From assembly GCF_001514535.1 (NCBI RefSeq), contig NZ_BCNO01000002.1:298583-362582 (forward strand): a stretch of 64,000 nt of DNA. Direction: 5' to 3'. The position numbers were made by a program, and so were the translations under genes. A model generated the notes under the pieces. It saw only the letters and a program-made list of their open reading frames with translations, searched no databases and was not told the DNA's origin. Below are positions 32,358 through 47,078 of this stretch, piece after piece; position 1 is the first letter of the stretch; each line of letters opens with the position of its first letter. Source of the stretch: Thermodesulfovibrio aggregans. GTDB lineage: Bacteria; Nitrospirota; Thermodesulfovibrionia; Thermodesulfovibrionales; Thermodesulfovibrionaceae.

Positions 32358-32898
32358 TTAAGCTTGTTCTTCTTCTGAAATTATATTGGAGGGTGCTTTC
32401 ATCCCTATTGCTTTAAGGATTTTTCTACCTTCTGGGGTAAGTTTGGTCTTTATATACACTTTTCTACCATCTACTTCAATCTCTACATAATTCATCCTAT
32501 TTATGGCTTCTCTGATTTTGTCTTGAGAGATGCTCTCTCCAGCTCTCTTTATCTCTATCTCAAGGGCTCGCTCAAGTAAAAAGGCTATGAAACACATCAC
32601 AAAGTGCCCCCTTATTCTTCTCTCTGTCCAGTGAAATATTGGTCTAACTTCAAGATTGCTCTTCATACACCTGAAACTTTCCTCTATTCTCCATAGCTCA
32701 TGATAACTGTTAAGTACTTCTGTGGCTGTGAATCCTTCTTCAGAGGTCTGTATCCCAAAATATCCATCAAAGGCTTCATCCTGTTTTGTAGTTTCCTGGT
32801 CTATCTGATACTCCACGGTACTCAGTGGCTTTATGTATTTCCTGCCACCTCTCTTGATAGAGGCTGTGATTAATGAGGGCTTGCTTAAAAGTTCTTCC
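32358..32898 (-). pseudogene. IS1634/IS4-type transposase, C-terminal fragment
   Basis: The minus-strand reading frame contains blocks typical of the C-terminal part of IS1634-type transposases: DEAFDGYFGIQT, YHELWRIEESFRCMKS, LEVRPIFHWTERRIRGHFV and MCFIAFLLERALEIE. Real homology starts at about ENFQEELLSKPS. Upstream of this the DNA is the left terminus of an IS21-type element (from about 32899), so the 5' two-thirds of the gene is missing. The open frame continues by chance across the junction to 33095. It is non-functional as a transposase. Confidence 0.85.
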
Positions 32899-33120
32899 TG
32901 AAAATTCTCACTGAAAATTGCCCCACTTTTCTCATGAAAATTAACCCACCCTTCTATTAAAATAACCCCTAAAACAGGGGGAAAGGAAAGGGTGATAAGC
33001 ATGGAAGATTGGGTAAAAATAAGGAATCTTAAGAAGAAAAATCCAGAGCTTGGCACAAGAGCAATTGCTAAGCTTGTTGGGGTATCAAGAAACACTGTAA
33101 AGAAAGCTCTTAAAGCTGAT
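32899..33120 (+). mobile_element. istA: IS21-type element, left terminus with truncated istA
   Basis: From TGAAAATTCTCACTGAAAAT at 32899 the sequence matches a second copy at 46916. It then runs through a GGGGGAAAGGAAAGGGTGAT ribosome region to ATG 33001. The reading frame gives MEDWVKIRNLKKKNPELGTR and then AIAKLVGVSRNTVKKALKAD, the N-terminal helix-turn-helix of IstA transposases. Homology ends near 33120, where unrelated cargo sequence begins. About 90 percent of istA is absent. The left terminus contains two internal TGAAAATT-type repeats, as IS21 ends usually do. Confidence 0.85.
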
Positions 33121-33132
33121 TTTTATCCTCTT

Positions 33133-33771
33133 CTAATGTGCCATATCCCAGGCCAGGATATCATAGTAAATTGCAGGGACACCTGCTTCTTTAGCTACAT
33201 CCGCTATGTATCTCTGAAGTAGTAGATATTCCTCTGGTTTTTTAATAAAATTCATTGTTGCATTAGATGGTATCTTGGGATTAGTAATAAGCCTTCTCAA
33301 TCCAACTATAGAGTAGTGATCAAGGGGAACATGGAGTAAACGAATCAATCTTTGTTTAAAATCCTCATCAAGATTTAAAAGACAAGGCAGTTTCTTAAGT
33401 ACAAGATTGCACAGCTTTGAGGCAATCCCAAAACCCAGTTCTGAGCTCATTATCTTAAGCCATTCTAAACGTAGATTATCAGTCGACTCAAGAACAAATA
33501 TCTCATATTCATCTTCTGTATTGATTGTTTGGAGTCTTTCCATAGCCCCTGTTATCCACTTTGTGCCCCATTCTCTGAATACAACGGAAGGCTTCTTCGG
33601 GAGCTTTCGAAAAGCACGAAAGGTATTTCCCGAAACCCCTTCTCTTACAACACTTTCGATATTTGGAATTCTCTTAGAAAAGAAATCATTAGCCCTTATC
33701 CGAGTTTTTTCTGAACGAAGATATTCTATCAATTCATCTCTGCTGTTAAATTCATAAGGAGCCTTTGCCAT
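33133..33771 (-). CDS. Hypothetical protein (212 aa), cargo of the IS21-bounded segment
   Basis: The protein shows no signal peptide or TM segment. The N-terminal 60 residues are basic and the C-terminal half is helical and ordered-looking: LLHVPLDHYSIVGLRRLI, then EYLLLQRYIADVAKEAGVP and the terminal AIYYDILAWDMAH. The spacing of DH, W, D and H residues looks conserved rather than random, so I think it is a real enzyme or nucleic-acid-binding protein, but I cannot name a family. It points away from the AAA ATPase gene and is preceded by a tandem 18-base repeat that may control it. The stop codon lies within 13 bases of the IS21 junction. Confidence 0.65.
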   Translation of the reverse strand: MAKAPYEFNSRDELIEYLRSEKTRIRANDFFSKRIPNIESVVREGVSGNTFRAFRKLPKKPSVVFREWGTKWITGAMERLQTINTEDEYEIFVLESTDNLRLEWLKIMSSELGFGIASKLCNLVLKKLPCLLNLDEDFKQRLIRLLHVPLDHYSIVGLRRLITNPKIPSNATMNFIKKPEEYLLLQRYIADVAKEAGVPAIYYDILAWDMAH

Positions 33772-33893
33772 AGTATTCCCCCTTTATTAAGTTGTATTAG
33801 TCAAAACTTGGTCTTCCGATATTTTGGCTTTCACATCTTTTTTCTTGAAGTATAACCCATCTTTTTTTTCTCTTGGCAAGATGAACAGTACCT

Positions 33894-33929
33894 CGTTCCG
33901 TTCTATTATATCGTTCCGTTCTATTATAT
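33894..33929 (-). repeat. Tandem 18-bp direct repeat upstream of the 212-aa gene
   Basis: CGTTCCGTTCTATTATAT occurs twice in tandem without mismatch (33894-33911 and 33912-33929). On the minus strand each unit reads ATATAATAGAACGGAACG, with a TATAAT-like core and the short repeat GAACGGAAC. It lies about 125 bases upstream of the 212-aa gene, in the divergent region before the AAA gene. An operator or duplicated promoter is possible. Confidence 0.75.
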
Positions 33930-34079
33930 TTGACTGATATAAATTGTTCATAGTATAATATTTATATAGTGAATAATCTTGGACTTGAAAACGACGGCTT
34001 TTCACCTCACCAGATTTAACCTTCCTTAAATCTTTTCAAATTTATAACTTAAATACAAAAAATCAAAAAGGAGTTTTTT

Positions 34080-35300
34080 ATGAGAAAAATAGGTAGATTT
34101 CGTCAAAACTTAACACTGCCAATATCTTCTTTTATCAGAATGGTTAATTATGAAATATATCAATCAATAAAGTCATATCTGCTTAAAATCCATATGGGCT
34201 TGGTCTCAACTGATAGTTTTGAACTTGTCGATCTTTTCTCATTTACCCAACCAGGTATATTTTCCCTTCCTAACATAATGGGTTTTGATCTTTTTGAGAA
34301 TGTAATGTCAAGTGAGCCCTCTATTCTTGGTGTAATCAGATTCAGGCGTGAGAGATATTTTATCTCGTGCACTTCATTTGAGGACAGAGTTGGAAAGATT
34401 TATTGCCTCGTCATTTCAGGAGAGATAACAGGTGATTTCAGACCCGCTGACCTTGCTGAGACAATACTTAAGGAAGCTGTTTTAAACTCAGGATATTCAG
34501 GTAAGATTTTAAGATTAGTCTATGATTCAGCAAACGATAAGTTAACTTTTAAGATAATTCCTCCACCTGACATCACTCTTGAAGACATATATTTGATTGA
34601 TAAAACTGATCTGGAAGACTTTGTTGACTCTGTCAGGATTGGTGGTAGCTCATTAAGATATCTTTTCATTGGCGAACCTGGAACAGGAAAAACTGATACA
34701 ATCAGAGCAATTATTTCTGAATGCAAAAAAATAAGAGAGAATCTTACAATTTTTGTAGTTGATGCTGGATGTGGAGTTTCTCTTGAAGTTGTCTTTGAAT
34801 TTGCCGAGATTTTCAGACCTGTTCTGGTATGTATCGATGACATTGACCTGCTGGTTGGTTCAAGGGATCGCACTCTCAAAAGAGACGAACTTTCAACAGC
34901 ACTTCAGGCTCTTGATGGGTTCATAACAAAGGACAATATTTTTCTGATTGCCACCACTAACGACAGATACCTTGTTGACTTTGCCTTAAGAAGACCTGGT
35001 AGGTTTGATCTTATAATTGAGTTTGGTTGTCTTGAGGCAGAATTTTACAGTACCCTTGTAATGAGAGAATCCAGAGATGATAGACTTGCAGAAGTATTCA
35101 AAGATGAAAGAATACTAAAGCGTCTTTCTTCCTTGAAGGTAACAGGAGCATTTCTTGTAACACTGGTTAAGTATTTAAGCAGAGAAAGATTCAGGAATAT
35201 AAGATACGAGCCAGAGGCAGTGCTTTCAGCTATCAACAGGCTTTATGGCTCTTTTAAATCAGAAATTAAACATGATAAAGTAGGATTTCAGAATAGCTGA
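34080..35300 (+). CDS. AAA-family ATPase (CDC48/FtsH/BCS1-like module)
   Basis: The 406-residue protein has an N-terminal region of about 165 residues with no recognised domain, then one AAA module: Walker A GEPGTGKT (198-205), Walker B LVCIDDID (249-256), sensor 1 ATTND (291-295), and the arginine-finger segment RRPGRFD (304-310). A small helical lid follows. There is no protease, TM segment or second AAA domain. Such proteins usually remodel other proteins, and the N-terminal region probably picks the client. AAAAAGGAG precedes the ATG. It lies 12 bases before the secreted-protein gene, so they are probably cotranscribed. Confidence 0.88.
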   Translation: MRKIGRFRQNLTLPISSFIRMVNYEIYQSIKSYLLKIHMGLVSTDSFELVDLFSFTQPGIFSLPNIMGFDLFENVMSSEPSILGVIRFRRERYFISCTSFEDRVGKIYCLVISGEITGDFRPADLAETILKEAVLNSGYSGKILRLVYDSANDKLTFKIIPPPDITLEDIYLIDKTDLEDFVDSVRIGGSSLRYLFIGEPGTGKTDTIRAIISECKKIRENLTIFVVDAGCGVSLEVVFEFAEIFRPVLVCIDDIDLLVGSRDRTLKRDELSTALQALDGFITKDNIFLIATTNDRYLVDFALRRPGRFDLIIEFGCLEAEFYSTLVMRESRDDRLAEVFKDERILKRLSSLKVTGAFLVTLVKYLSRERFRNIRYEPEAVLSAINRLYGSFKSEIKHDKVGFQNS

Positions 35301-35312
35301 AGGAGGTTAAAA

Positions 35313-36026
35313 ATGAATAAAATTGTATGTTTATTTTTAATCTTATTTTTGCTTTTCAGTAAATTAGCTTTTGCATTCTCTGATATCTCTGGAGAGTACA
35401 TGATTAAACTTAAAGGAGTTGATGGAGGAATTGAAATTAAAGCAAAGGAAAAGGATAAATTTGAATTTGAACTTAACACAGTTACAGGTGGTTGGTATAC
35501 CTGTAATGTTGAAGGCGTAGCTACATTTATAGAGAAAAATAGAGCAATTTTCAGAGATGAAGAGGGATGCCTTATTACCTTCACATTTAAAAATAATCAG
35601 ATTGATTTAAAAACACAGAACTGTTCGATTTATTGTGGACTAAATGGAATTATGGATGGTAAGTATGTCAAAAAATTAAAAAAGAAGGAAAAGGATGAAT
35701 TTAAAAATAGAAACTGGGTTAAATTCGCAAGTTCAAAAGATAATGTGCTTGAACTGTTCTATGATAAAGATTCTGTTGCTCCATCTGTTGGTGGAAGTGT
35801 CTTTATTACAACAAAGCTGGTTGAAAAAGGAAATGAGATTATTATCGCAGACCTATCAGTAAATTGCGGCAGCAGGAATTCACCTCTTGATCTCATCTAC
35901 ATACTCTCAAAGAGAAAAGGTAAATGGGTTGAGGACTCTCCAACAAATCCTGAATTAAAAACCTACACTTCAGTTTACAGAAACAGTGTAGTTATTGAGA
36001 GTCTCCATGAAATAGTTTGCAGATAA
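35313..36026 (+). CDS. Secreted protein with a C-terminal surface-adhesin-E-like region
   Basis: The 237-residue protein has a signal peptide (1-21, ending KLAFA). The first half is a beta-rich domain with cysteines at CNVEG, EGCLI, QNCSIYCG. The second half starts NWVKFASSKDNVLELFYDKD and ends in paired cysteines (VNCGS and the final VCR), a pattern I associate with small surface-adhesin E-type domains. The cysteines suggest disulfides in the periplasm or outside the cell. It lies between an AAA ATPase and an acidic cytoplasmic protein, which gives no clear function. Confidence 0.75.
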   Translation: MNKIVCLFLILFLLFSKLAFAFSDISGEYMIKLKGVDGGIEIKAKEKDKFEFELNTVTGGWYTCNVEGVATFIEKNRAIFRDEEGCLITFTFKNNQIDLKTQNCSIYCGLNGIMDGKYVKKLKKKEKDEFKNRNWVKFASSKDNVLELFYDKDSVAPSVGGSVFITTKLVEKGNEIIIADLSVNCGSRNSPLDLIYILSKRKGKWVEDSPTNPELKTYTSVYRNSVVIESLHEIVCR

Positions 36027-36039
36027 AAAGGGGCAACAA

Positions 36040-37101
36040 ATGAAAGAGCGTGTTTATTTTACAGAGAAGGAGTTAAGAAAAATTGAAGAGGCAGTCTATG
36101 ACATTTTAGATGAAGATAAAGAAAATAGCCTGAATGGTGAAATGATACTTGAGGAACTCTTTAGAAAAGGATTTTCTTTTGGAAAATACAGTAAAAATCA
36201 ATTAAAGCGTATGCTGATTAAATACCTTAAAAATTGGTCAGATTATGAACTTAAAAAATTAAATTCAATTGCACAAAAAGACTTAAAAACAAATTTTAGA
36301 ATTGACAATTTACTGATACTTCAAGAATTTCTGTTTCTTGCTGTAGATGACCTGACTTTTCGGTTTAATGAGGCATTTGAGTTAGGATTTAAGCTAATAA
36401 GAGAAAGAGAGATTAGAAAATTTGTTGAAACCCTTTATCAGGGAATCTTCAATCCTACTCAGGAAGCTCTTGAAAGGACAAAAAAATTTAGAGAGGGAAT
36501 AGAAGTACTTTTTTCACAGAAAGAACCAAAAGGATTATTGGATAAGTATTTTAAAGAAAAAGACAATTTGGATGATGAAGAATTAACAGAAGAAATTTTT
36601 GAGGAACAAATATTTGAAGAGGAGAATCAAGGGGATATAGAAATTACAGACTATCATGTTTTTTCTAACATTGTTGAAAGCCTGATAGACAACAAAAATG
36701 AACTCGAAAAGGAAAAAATAAAGCAGATATTTAATGATGCTAAGGTTAATTTCGATAAAATTACAGACCATGAACTCATTTTAGAATTGTTCAATATGGC
36801 AAAAGAGGCTGTAGAGAGAGAGATAAATGAGGATGAATACATAGCCCATAAGTTTTACTCAATAGATTTCGATGATATATATAATGACTGTGTAGACATT
36901 GATGACCATCAGTCAAAGGATTGCAGGCTCGTCTATCTATTTAATCTGTGGTCTCTTTCCCAGAGACCAATTAAGAAAATGAAGTTGAAAAGGTTTGAAT
37001 TTTTTGAGTCGAGACTTAAATTTACGGTAACTGAGAAAAATCTAATTGAGTTCATAAAAGAAGAAATCAAGAAAAGAAGAGTTCGGCAAAGAAAGAGTTG
37101 A
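36040..37101 (+). CDS. Hypothetical acidic protein (353 aa)
   Basis: The protein has no signal or TM segment and is rich in Lys, Glu and Asp. It appears mostly helical, with an acidic stretch at about residues 180-205 (DDEELTEEIFEEQIFEEE) and a basic C-terminus (KKRRVRQRKS) that could touch nucleic acid. I recognise no family. It starts 13 bases after the secreted-protein gene with AAAAAGGGGC upstream of the ATG, and is the third gene of the cargo operon, closed by a terminator at 37277. Confidence 0.7.
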   Translation: MKERVYFTEKELRKIEEAVYDILDEDKENSLNGEMILEELFRKGFSFGKYSKNQLKRMLIKYLKNWSDYELKKLNSIAQKDLKTNFRIDNLLILQEFLFLAVDDLTFRFNEAFELGFKLIREREIRKFVETLYQGIFNPTQEALERTKKFREGIEVLFSQKEPKGLLDKYFKEKDNLDDEELTEEIFEEQIFEEENQGDIEITDYHVFSNIVESLIDNKNELEKEKIKQIFNDAKVNFDKITDHELILELFNMAKEAVEREINEDEYIAHKFYSIDFDDIYNDCVDIDDHQSKDCRLVYLFNLWSLSQRPIKKMKLKRFEFFESRLKFTVTEKNLIEFIKEEIKKRRVRQRKS

Positions 37102-37276
37102 ACTTGGATTAATCAATAATTATTCTGACATTTTGGATTATATCTCATTTTACAAATTATGACCTATCACTCTCTATTTTGTAGGATAAATTTTGCCATT
37201 AAACTGCATTGGTCCAGATTTAATCTGAAACTACCATTAGAGAGTTATACTAAGTATGTTATATTTTTAAAGCCAC

Positions 37277-37310
37277 AAAAGCTGTATTAATTTCAGCTTT
37301 TTCTTTTTTT
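37277..37310 (+). terminator. Rho-independent terminator of the cargo operon
   Basis: AAAAGCTG (37277-37284) and CAGCTTTT (37294-37301) form an 8-base stem with a 9-base A+T loop, followed by TTCTTTTTTT. It lies 175 bases after the 353-aa gene and just before the nucleotidyltransferase gene. Upstream, CAGATTTAATCTG at about 37216-37228 is a short palindrome of unknown role. Confidence 0.75.
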
Positions 37311-37343
37311 AACATTAAATTTTGATTGGGAGAAAAATGGAAG

Positions 37344-37931
37344 ATGAGAAAGTTAGATGAGATTTTAAATGAAGCATTCTCCAGGGAACAGAGAAAGGAT
37401 TTGATAGAACTATTCAGTTTACTGTATGCAGATGATGTGGCTTATGCAGTTGCTGGCGGAGTTGCGGTAGCTTATTGGGTTATTGGTCGTACTGCCACTA
37501 AGGGTGATATAGACATTGTTATTGAGGAAGGGCATTTTGAAGATATAGTTAAGTTTTTATACGATAGAGATTGGAGTGTGACCAGTGGCGGAGGTGTAAT
37601 AACAGGAGGCTTAATCGAAAGATTCTTTATTTCTGGGAAAAGAGGTGGTATAAAGGTTGATGTATTGATAGTTAAAGATGGATTATTTTTTGATAATTGG
37701 AGAGAGTGGGTAAAGTGGGAAGGAGTTAATGTTGCAGTTTTAAGACCAATGTGGTTAGTGCAATTTAAGTACGATTCTGGTAGAGATAAAGACAATGAGG
37801 ATTTAATACAACTTCTAAGAGTGATGAATGACGAGGAAATTAAAAAAACAGAGTACATGGCATTGGAATTTTTTGGAAAGGATGCATGGAAAGAGATTGA
37901 ACTATTAATAAAAGAGAAAGAGCTACAGTGA
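37344..37931 (+). CDS. Nucleotidyltransferase-fold protein (AbiEii/MNT-like)
   Basis: The protein has the minimal nucleotidyltransferase signature: VAGGVAVAYWVIGRTATKGD, with GG, R-x-T and then DIDIV carrying the paired acidic metal ligands, and a third acidic residue in IKVDVLIV. The C-terminal part VQFKYDSGRDKDNEDLIQLL resembles the K-x5-R-D-K-D-x-x-D motif of AbiEii-type and related toxin or unknown proteins. No AbiEi-like antitoxin is adjacent. ATG 37344 is preferred to TTG 37326, though spacing from GGGAG is long. The stop codon lies at the junction with the truncated istB, so the gene is the last cargo gene. Confidence 0.75.
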   Translation: MRKLDEILNEAFSREQRKDLIELFSLLYADDVAYAVAGGVAVAYWVIGRTATKGDIDIVIEEGHFEDIVKFLYDRDWSVTSGGGVITGGLIERFFISGKRGGIKVDVLIVKDGLFFDNWREWVKWEGVNVAVLRPMWLVQFKYDSGRDKDNEDLIQLLRVMNDEEIKKTEYMALEFFGKDAWKEIELLIKEKELQ

Positions 37932-38296
37932 CTGATATATCGCCATTTCTTGTGATGGTAAAAAATTTCAAATCCAAGCCTTATTCAAAAACATTGCCAC
38001 AATATATAGAAAGTCTGAGCAGAATAGAGCTGCTGATAATAGATGAAGTTGGATATCTTGAGATAAGCAAGGCATCAGCAGCTTTATTTTTTAAACTCAT
38101 ATCAAAGAGATATGAAAAGACCTCAACAATAATAACAACGAACAAGCCATTTGAAGAGTGGAATGAGATATTTGGAGATGAAGTAATAGCAGCAGCAATA
38201 CTTGACAGACTTCTTCATCATTGTTATCCCTTTTTTATAACAGGGAAAAGCTACAGGATGAAAGAATTATTTGAGAAAGGGGTGAAAAAAGAATAA
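37928..38296 (+). pseudogene. istB: IS21-type istB helper ATPase, C-terminal fragment
   Basis: The frame encodes the C-terminal half of an IstB ATPase: ELLIIDEVGYLEISKASA (Walker B region), TSTIITTNKPFEEWNEIF and AAAILDRLLHHCYPFFITG, then SYRMKEL. The N-terminal half with Walker A is missing; homology starts near 37940. Orientation is the same as the istA fragment at 33001. The IS21 right terminus follows at 38313. It cannot act as a transposition helper by itself. Confidence 0.88.
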
Positions 38297-38312
38297 AAAA
38301 TGATACTATATA

Positions 38313-38365
38313 GGGTGGGTCAAATTTCGTGAAAAAACCCGGGCCAATTTTCATGAAAATTTACA
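38313..38365 (+). mobile_element. IS21-type element, right terminus
   Basis: The stretch starting GGGTGGGTCAAATTTCGTGA and containing CCAATTTTCATGAAAATTTA is, read in reverse complement, similar to the left ends at 32899 and 46916 (TGAAAATT repeats followed by GACCCACCC). It lies 17 bases after the istB stop. It closes the segment opened by the left terminus at 32899, giving an IS21-bounded unit of about 5.5 kb. Confidence 0.75.
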
Positions 38366-38368
38366 CTT

Positions 38369-38401
38369 GGAAACTTGACCTCATCTAAAAGGGATTGCGA
38401 C
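38369..38401 (-). other. Single sequence resembling a CRISPR repeat
   Basis: Immediately beyond the IS21 right end the minus strand reads GTCGCAATCCCTTTTAGATG followed by AGGTCAAGTTTCC. The GTCGCAATCCCT opening, the A/T-rich middle and the 30-odd-base length resemble known CRISPR repeats that end in GGGATTGCGAC or GGGATTGAAAC when read the other way. There is only one copy, with no spacer-repeat series, so it is not annotated as an array. It may be a remnant left when the IS21 unit inserted. Confidence 0.35.
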
Positions 38402-38425
38402 TTTCAGTGTTGAGCTACCATACTT

Positions 38426-38712
38426 GTCACTGCGAGGGTGGCATTCCACCTGAAGCAGTCTCTCCATTCCTACAGAGTTGAAACGAAGAGATTGCTTCTC
38501 CCTCGCTGTGCTCGGAGTCACAATGACGAGAGAGAGGCGAGATTGCTTTGTCGCTGACACTCCTCGCAATGACAAAGTGAAAAACAACTCGCAATGACAG
38601 AAAAAGCACACAATGGCAGAAGAGAACGCTTCTTGCGATGATAAAAAAGGGCGGTTGTAATGATGGACTGTAGAGATTGCTTCGTCGCTGACATTCCTCG
38701 CAATGAGAGGGT
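38426..38712. repeat. Cluster A of a dispersed palindromic repeat
   Basis: Several degenerate copies in both orientations of a repeat built on CGCAATGAC and GAGATTGCTTCGTCGCTGA(C), for example at 38535-38573 and 38672-38707, plus GTCACTGCGAGGGTGGCATT at 38426. The same family forms clusters at 43838 and 46638. Arms such as GAGGA/TCCTC allow long RNA hairpins. Short ORFs here are translations of the repeat and not genes. This type of intergenic repeat (GTCATTGCGAGGAGCG... AGCGACGAAGCAATCTC) is widespread among bacteria. Confidence 0.85.
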
Positions 38713-38861
38713 AAAAGTCCACAATTACAAGTAAAAGGGCATGTAATTAGAAAAACTGTGTCTTACCTACGAACCATCCTTAAGGACACATAAGTGAAGC
38801 GGAGAAGTCGTAGTGTTCAGTATTTAAATTGTTTTTGGCAGTTTTAGTAGAAATTTGTGTT

Positions 38862-44999: not shown

Positions 45000-46331
45000 C
45001 TAAAATCCTATGTCTTTTAGAGCTTGTGGAAACTGTAAAGCCTGGGCAAAGTCTTTTACTCCTGCTGCTTTAAGTGCATCAGTTAAGAAGTTGTGAAATT
45101 GGTCTTTTATTTCTCTAAACTCTTCTTTTAGTATTGGCGTTAATCCATGAGCAAGTATGGAGTTATTTCTTGATTTCAGGCAGTCAAGAAGCTTATTTTT
45201 TCTCTCAAGATAGAGTTTTCCCACAGGATCATCCATACTTCCAAGTAATTCATAGCTCTTTGTAAGGGCAAGTTTCAGAATTCCGTCTTCACTATTTTTC
45301 TTGCATTCTTCTCTTAGAAACTCTATTGCTTTTTCAGTTTGAACATTGAACTTTGAATTTTGAACATCTATTTTAAGTTCGTCGCAGTTTATCTTGGAGT
45401 TATCTATTCCATAGGAAAGCTTTAGTCGTAACTGAGCAATCATCTCTATAGCTCTGTAGTATCTCGCAACGGCATCGTCGTATCTTTCCTGTTCAGCCCT
45501 TCGTTCAGCATTCATCATCAGGTCAATTACTCTCTCATATCCATGAAATGGCTCTTTCTTTCCAAGAATTTGCTTGAGCCAGAGATAATACTTTACTACC
45601 GATTTTTGAACTGGACTGTCTTTTGTAATTGCTTTCAGTATTCTTTCAAACTCCTCATAGGCACCCTCATGCTGAAATTTATCCCATAAAACAAAGGCAT
45701 AAAGTATGTTCCTTATCAGCATTATTTCATTTCGTGTTTCGTGATTCAGAGGATATTTAAGATAAGTTTTTGTTTTTTCAATAATTTCCTCGTAGTAGTA
45801 GCCTTTCATCAATGAATCGAAATAGGTTTTGTCAATTCTATAAAGGAGATTCATTTTGTTAATGGCAACTGGGAAGTCTCCGCTGTCAATTTTAGTTAGA
45901 TTGGTTCTCTGACCGGCATTAAAACAAAGTTCCCAACCTTCTTGAAAGATACTGACAAGCACCAATGCAACACTCATGGTTTTTGTACCACCAGTGTAGT
46001 TGGCAATTACTTTTATAGTTTTTTTCTCAGGAAATCTTTCGTTGATTCTACTAATCAGCTGTTTTTCTATTTCTTTAAATGTTTCGTTAAGGTCGTCAAT
46101 TATGTCCACTGGAAGAAGTATTTTTTCATATTGTTCAGATGTAAGATTACATTCTCTTACAATAATTATTTCATTGTCTTTTAACTTCTCTCCATCAACA
46201 ATTCTCTCTGATGCCACCTCTGATTTTCCTGAAGAGCAGATAAAGTAGATGAAGTCAAAGTTGGTCTCTTTAATGGCATTAACAATTGGTGCAGGACTAC
46301 CACCTACTGTAAAAACCCCAATTGTTTTCAT
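45000..46331 (-). CDS. Orphan CARF-HEPN protein, TIGR02710 family (CRISPR ancillary ribonuclease type)
   Basis: The 443-residue protein opens with a Rossmann-like CARF domain: VFTVGGSPAPIVNAI (about 6-20), FICSSGKSE, and NYTGGTKTMSVAL (about 111-123), the cyclic-oligoadenylate pocket motif. A helical linker follows, then a C-terminal HEPN-like domain with SRNNSILAHG, giving Arg388-x6-His395 of the ribonuclease site. In type III CRISPR systems such proteins are turned on by cyclic oligoadenylate from Cas10 and degrade RNA. No cas10, csm/cmr, cas6 or array is visible here. The 5' flank (46332-46637) shows no gene. Confidence 0.85.
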   Translation of the reverse strand: MKTIGVFTVGGSPAPIVNAIKETNFDFIYFICSSGKSEVASERIVDGEKLKDNEIIIVRECNLTSEQYEKILLPVDIIDDLNETFKEIEKQLISRINERFPEKKTIKVIANYTGGTKTMSVALVLVSIFQEGWELCFNAGQRTNLTKIDSGDFPVAINKMNLLYRIDKTYFDSLMKGYYYEEIIEKTKTYLKYPLNHETRNEIMLIRNILYAFVLWDKFQHEGAYEEFERILKAITKDSPVQKSVVKYYLWLKQILGKKEPFHGYERVIDLMMNAERRAEQERYDDAVARYYRAIEMIAQLRLKLSYGIDNSKINCDELKIDVQNSKFNVQTEKAIEFLREECKKNSEDGILKLALTKSYELLGSMDDPVGKLYLERKNKLLDCLKSRNNSILAHGLTPILKEEFREIKDQFHNFLTDALKAAGVKDFAQALQFPQALKDIGF

Positions 46332-46915: not shown

Positions 46916-47078
46916 TGAAAATTCTCACTGAAAATTGACCCACCCTTTTATTAAAATAATTCCTAAAACAGGGGGAAAGGAAAGGGTGATAAGCATGGAA
47001 GATTGGATAACAATAAGAAATCTTAAGAAGAAAAATTCAGAGCTCGGCAAAATAGCAATTGCAATTGCTTATTCTTGA
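46916..47078 (+). mobile_element. istA: Second IS21-type left terminus with short istA remnant
   Basis: From TGAAAATTCTCACTGAAAAT at 46916 through the ribosome region to ATG 46995 this copy closely matches the left end at 32899. The frame reads MEDWITIRNLKKKNSELGK and then departs to a stop at 47078. The internal segment present in the first copy between the two GACCCACCC-like blocks is missing here, so the termini differ by a short deletion. It is a remnant only. Confidence 0.8.

Follow-up and report, generated by a model that had tools for sequence, protein, structure and literature searches.

The Thermodesulfovibrio aggregans genome (3 contigs, 2.0 Mb) carries a 5.5-kb segment bounded by the two opposite ends of an IS21-family insertion sequence, and this arrangement raises the question of whether the bracket is a unit that IS21 can move or a product of breakage among separate IS21 copies. 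Positions given here without a contig name (C1, C2 or C3) are those of the window, the whole stretch of 64,000 nucleotides that was analysed. A preliminary description of this DNA had left the choice between an IS21 derivative that carries cargo and two IS21 copies with a deletion or recombination between them. Our analysis indicates that the segment is probably a rearrangement scar, in which two neighbouring IS21 insertions on the same strand lost the parts that faced each other.

The left and right termini lie at 32899 and 38365 in one orientation, exactly as first described, and no complete istA or istB occurs in between. The left stub (32899-33130, + strand) corresponds to bases 1-232 of the element and is 97.8% identical by blastn to the intact copy at C1:282942-285347; it retains 43 istA codons, so that its left end was correctly placed by the preliminary description and its extent (to 33120, with 40 codons) was not. 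The right stub (37977-38365, + strand) comprises the 3′ part of istB and the right inverted repeat. Specifically, its alignment with IS21 begins at TATTCAAAAACATTG (position 37977) and covers bases ~2017 to 2406 of the element (~390 bases), with 97.4% identity over 37982-38365 and a match to IstB_IS21 (PF01695, E=3.1e-36). The istB 3′ end was thus recognized in the earlier account, which set its start at 37928; the open reading frame that spans 37928-38296 is chimeric, and its first ~16 codons are non-IS21 DNA. Both junctions had been placed within 15 bases of a stop codon of the enclosed genes, which holds for the left one (33130/33131, 2 bases from the stop codon of the first enclosed gene) and fails for the right one (~37977, 45 bases past the last stop, at 37931).

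The identity of the stubs, the IstB_IS21 match and terminal inverted repeats with two repeats per end identify the bracket as an IS21-family remnant. Its termini read TG...CA, as in IS21, and the 54-bp inverted repeats are 74% complementary in an ungapped comparison. It differs from family members in retaining only the 43 istA codons and ~105 istB codons and in the mutated cores of its ends. Relative to the intact copy, ~1.79 kb of IS21 is absent and 4.85 kb of other DNA with five intact genes stands in its place. Both ends are oriented as in a complete element and the genes inside include no transposase, which is the structure of a non-autonomous IS21. By our own arithmetic, with ~13 left ends in 2.0 Mb, ~0.02 properly oriented left ends are expected no farther than 5.5 kb from any one right end; since left ends cluster, with six in 45 kb of C1 and one more at window position 46916, this figure is an underestimate.

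This structure brings in the main rival to the scar, a decayed mobile insertion cassette in which the IS21 middle (bases 233 to ~2016) was replaced by the 4.85 kb of cargo. Such a unit would have kept both ends and would once have been movable by IstA and IstB of an intact copy, its flanks being changed later by deletion or recombination. The presence of both termini with their 54-bp inverted repeats is in line with this history, as is an intact IS21 with open istA and istB that could act in trans. Furthermore, the stubs have diverged from the intact copy about equally (2.2% on the left and 2.6% on the right), as expected of one element, and this equality argues against the scar. On the evidence of the flanks and end motifs described below, we nevertheless consider the cassette doubtful.

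All five open reading frames first reported between the IS21 ends were located at their described places. The leftmost gene (33133-33771, - strand) encodes a 212-aa protein that matches nothing in Pfam, NCBIfam or PADLOC. Divergent from it is an AAA ATPase gene (34080-35300, + strand; 406 aa, PF00004 E=7.6e-17), whose product carries the Walker A motif GEPGTGKT and the Walker B motif VLVCIDDIDLL. Genes follow on the same strand for a 237-aa protein (35313-36026), in which a putative signal peptide was recognized by eye, and for an acidic 353-aa protein without a known domain (36040-37101). Because these three genes are separated by gaps of 12-13 bp, they look like one operon, which would have its own upstream promoter. 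The fifth gene (37326-37931, + strand) lies 224 bp downstream and encodes a nucleotidyltransferase-like protein with weak similarity to DUF2204 and NTP_transf_5 (PF09970 E=0.0088; PF14907 E=0.0086), both under the curated cutoffs.

The interval between the 212-aa and AAA genes contains a putative regulatory region (33889-33959), seen in the sequence, where a tandem repeat is accompanied by overlapping divergent promoter-like sites. The 18-base repeat GTTCCGTTCTATTATATC (33889-33930), upstream of the AAA operon, is possibly an operator. The sites TTGACT-18-TATAAT (+ strand) and TGAACA-16-TATAAT (- strand) are consensus matches whose count does not exceed that in shuffles.

What these genes might do together can only be guessed at: possibly an AAA remodeler forms the core of a chromosomal accessory function and has one secreted partner and one acidic, helical partner. 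The 353-aa protein is probably helical; its AlphaFold model is of low confidence, and the mean pLDDT of 41.6, like the 45.7 of the 212-aa protein, is too poor for a fold search. Profiles of the 237-aa and 353-aa pair gave only marginal, unrelated matches among PDB sequences.

Defence or toxin control had been guessed in the preliminary description, and we found nothing in support. It is very improbable that the segment is at present a mobile IS21-type unit whose cargo has a joint function of this kind. Such a unit would have the IS21 ends that are present, and the AAA domain does weakly resemble defence ATPases (IetA, PADLOC E=1.3e-8). However, the resemblance to IetA is that of a general AAA domain with no partner protease, models of the proteasome and FtsH type score higher in NCBIfam, the other enclosed proteins lack PADLOC matches and the end cores are mutated. 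As a candidate in its own right, the anti-phage system IetAS was rejected, its model NF042959 scoring 34.3 bits against a cutoff of 510 and none of the enclosed proteins matching a protease family, and no defence system gave a match above cutoff in PADLOC or NCBIfam.

The flanks of the bracket bear on its history. On the left, base 1 of IS21 cuts exactly, at 32898/32899, into an IS1634-family transposase gene, of which the C-terminal part remains (32358-32898, - strand; NCBIfam NF033559 E=1.1e-42, profile positions 319-482). An intact IS1634 copy at the start of C1 (C1:~118-2000) reads ...TTCTTCC followed by GCTTTCTG across the cut point, and this continuation has no second copy in the genome besides the intact IS1634 and none to the right of 38365. 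If the bracket had been inserted as one unit, the other half of IS1634 would be expected after 38365. A CRISPR repeat is found there instead: a single repeat (38369-38401, + strand; an exact match, with 0 expected in shuffles) lies 3 bp past the right terminus of IS21 and is followed by a degenerate array end. About 50 copies of this repeat are present in the C3 arrays (C3:25333-28466 and C3:37394-38429).

At C1:286136-286624 there are also a few degenerate copies of the repeat, and a dispersed repeat, GAGATTGCTTCGTCGCTGACATTCCTCGCAATGA with variants, adjoins CRISPR remnants both at window positions 38410-38720 and at L034:8260-9000. Farther along the window, a gene for a CRISPR-associated CARF protein (45000-46331, - strand; TIGR02710 E=4.2e-45) with a Csm6 HEPN domain (PF09670) adjoins another left end of IS21, that at 46916; no further cas gene was noticed in its vicinity.

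IS21 target duplications are published as 5 bp (PMC10122671), and an intact IS21 of the same type in another genome (G116) has GTTGA on both flanks. In contrast, the outer 5-mers of the bracket are CTTCC on the left and CTTGG on the right, so that the target duplications for which the preliminary description had advised looking, at 32899 and 38365, are absent. The two flanks do not combine into one uninterrupted target, and no tRNA was found as a target. A search for an empty site in relatives, using the YkuD-like gene to the right of the segment, found none that could be read because the relatives keep this gene in other surroundings. The missing duplication and the unrelated flanks count against the decayed cassette. 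The absence of any IS1634 or CRISPR remnant within the bracket that would mark deletions counts, conversely, against the scar.

The same flanks bear on a composite transposon, in which two full IS21 copies once moved the intervening genes as a unit and each later lost its inner part. This history would leave the same outer structure as the scar and would account for strain-specific cargo, and yet it is improbable: the outer ends show no target duplication, IS1634 and CRISPR sequences are not joinable into one site, and no second copy of the cargo was found.

The state of the IS21 ends suggests that the bracket is not mobile at present. Each IS21 end contains two repeats, each with a TGACCC core, and all four cores are preserved in the complete copy of the T. 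aggregans genome and in the 76%-identical complete copies of two other genomes (G115 and G116). In the window bracket, one of the four repeats has TGACCC, and the others have changed to TGCCCC, TAACCC and TGGCCC. Integration by IstA requires two complete repeats at each end (PMC10122671), and with three of the four cores changed the bracket would probably be immobile, which also weighs against the decayed cassette. A variant IstA may exist, because TGCCCC recurs in a left-end fragment at C1:719922 (L036), which has in common with the window left end four of the five differences of the latter from the intact copy.

Other IS21 copies in the genome have exchanged flanks. The intact copy at C1:282942-285347 (2,406 bp, TG...CA; istA of 492 codons and istB of 261 codons) has no target duplication of its own. 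AAATA stands at the end of its left flank and again at the start of the right flank of the IS21 copy with which C1 ends (C1:1275853); when the two flanks are joined with AAATA counted once, a 398-residue open frame results that matches the TonB receptor barrel (Pfam E=1.5e-20). Similarly, GTCTGT opens the right flank of the intact copy and closes the left flank of a left-end fragment at C2:272194, and the joined frame is also open. Split halves of single insertions appear to occur elsewhere in this genome, through recombination between IS21 copies. Identical IS21 copies may have been joined in the assembly, which could account for part of the TonB-receptor swap and is a point against the scar. 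Contig C1 ends inside IS21 (C1:1276053), and the end of C2 (C2:426524) and the start of C3 (C3:1) are reverse complements that resemble another transposase gene; the assembly is thus broken at repeat elements.

A second bracket of IS21 ends, ~870 bp long, lies at C1:681994-682863 (L037:9995-10864) and encloses a gene resembling RHH antitoxins (PF01402 E=3.3e-7) together with a disrupted PIN gene (PF13470 E=3.5e-8). TGACCC is preserved in two of its four repeats, and its left end lacks one of the two repeats. The existence of a second bracket with different genes speaks for the decayed cassette and against the scar. It also brings up a broader possibility, namely that IS21-based cassettes arose across the lineage as transposase genes were lost repeatedly, the ends being kept around new genes and remaining movable in trans by intact IS21. 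This proposal, taken jointly with the set of cassettes it would comprise (the AAA operon of the window and the RHH/PIN pair), is quite unlikely.

Fragments with a left terminus only number 7-9 and those with a right terminus only number 0 (two-sided binomial p=0.004 for 9:0). The left-only fragments are at window position 46916, at C1:675256, 689871, 694074, 716850, 719922 and 866280, and at C2:272194 and C2:97686. Among the nine, one case (44 bp between 9-bp GTCGGAATT repeats) is ambiguous, a second extends into masked sequence and one is apparently cut by another IS. A 48-bp remnant at C3:22868-22915 (L041:2869-2916) joins the first ~25 and last ~23 bases of IS21, a near-complete internal deletion.

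The distribution of the enclosed genes also bears on their history. The bracket is present once in the genome and was found in none of the 15 congeners examined, and no copy of an IS21-bounded unit with these genes was met at other sites of its own genome or in those congeners; the preliminary description had proposed to look in related strains for the same cargo between IS21 ends. This singularity is unfavourable to the decayed cassette. The blastn search of the whole unit, likewise proposed there, matched only istB when run against plasmids.

Among 177 genomes of the order, close relatives of the cargo occur only in G118, a member of the same genus with 68% completeness. On its contig C16, a relative of the 237-aa protein (52% identical) adjoins one of the 353-aa protein (36-37%), with a 62-aa open reading frame in between and no IS21 sequence on the contig; an N-terminally incomplete AAA relative (50% identical) lies at the end of another contig, C33. 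The preliminary description had taken the five genes, in the same order in relatives and free of IS21 ends, as a mark of a scar. This mark was seen in part: relatives of two of them are adjacent in G118 and that of the AAA gene is on a separate contig, and all five together were not found. A search of the 177 genomes from the order and of 396 from the phylum found the 212-aa protein in its own genome only, and it has no match in plasmids, phages, viral contigs or PDB sequences. For the nucleotidyltransferase-like protein, the order yielded only distant relatives, the genus none, and viral contigs, plasmids and the PDB no convincing match. For the AAA protein, genome contigs and viral contigs yielded one distant AAA protein and no viral relative.

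These observations are most consistent with the rearrangement scar. If this model is correct, two IS21 copies would have inserted in the same orientation, the left one in the IS1634 transposase gene and the right one beside a CRISPR repeat, with an accessory locus between them. One deletion would then have taken the left IS21's 3′ part and, with it, the other IS1634 half, and one would have taken the right IS21's 5′ part and the CRISPR DNA to the left of it, so that two stubs remain and the genes they enclose are no cargo of IS21. How many insertions took place, and in which order the deletions followed, is our reconstruction.

The scar fits better because the flanks are mismatched, no duplication is present, the cores are decayed and IS21 copies exchange flanks in this genome. 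It is further supported by the relatives of the 237-aa and 353-aa genes, which are adjacent without IS21 in G118, and by a bracket that is single and absent from congeners. Two insertions would explain the unrelated flanks with no step beyond two deletions, whereas replacement of the middle of one IS21 would call for a change of flank in addition. Two insertions 5.5 kb apart followed by two independent deletions are nevertheless not the shortest history, as a replaced middle needs fewer insertions. Of the alternatives first proposed, the one with two IS21 copies is therefore preferred on the grounds just given; the cargo-carrying derivative finds little evidence as a mobile unit and is the less probable reading as a decayed ancestor.

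The bracket resembles mobile insertion cassettes and transporter ISs (names as in PMC3129680) in having IS ends around genes not involved in transposition, no transposase inside and an intact related IS. It differs from them in having no target duplication, second copy or relative, in flanks that do not form one site and in decayed ends. With partial IS copies known as recombination scars (PMC3129680), it shares truncated ends, exchanged flanks and the company of several other partial copies in the genome, but its two stubs face each other and frame intact genes.

The enclosed 212-aa and 353-aa proteins stand without a relative of known function. If the segment were a mobile unit, IS21 would spread multi-gene accessory modules that lack a transposase of their own. 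As a scar it is less important, an example of IS21 copies breaking and swapping flanks within one genome, and it serves as a warning that two facing IS ends are no proof of a transposable unit.
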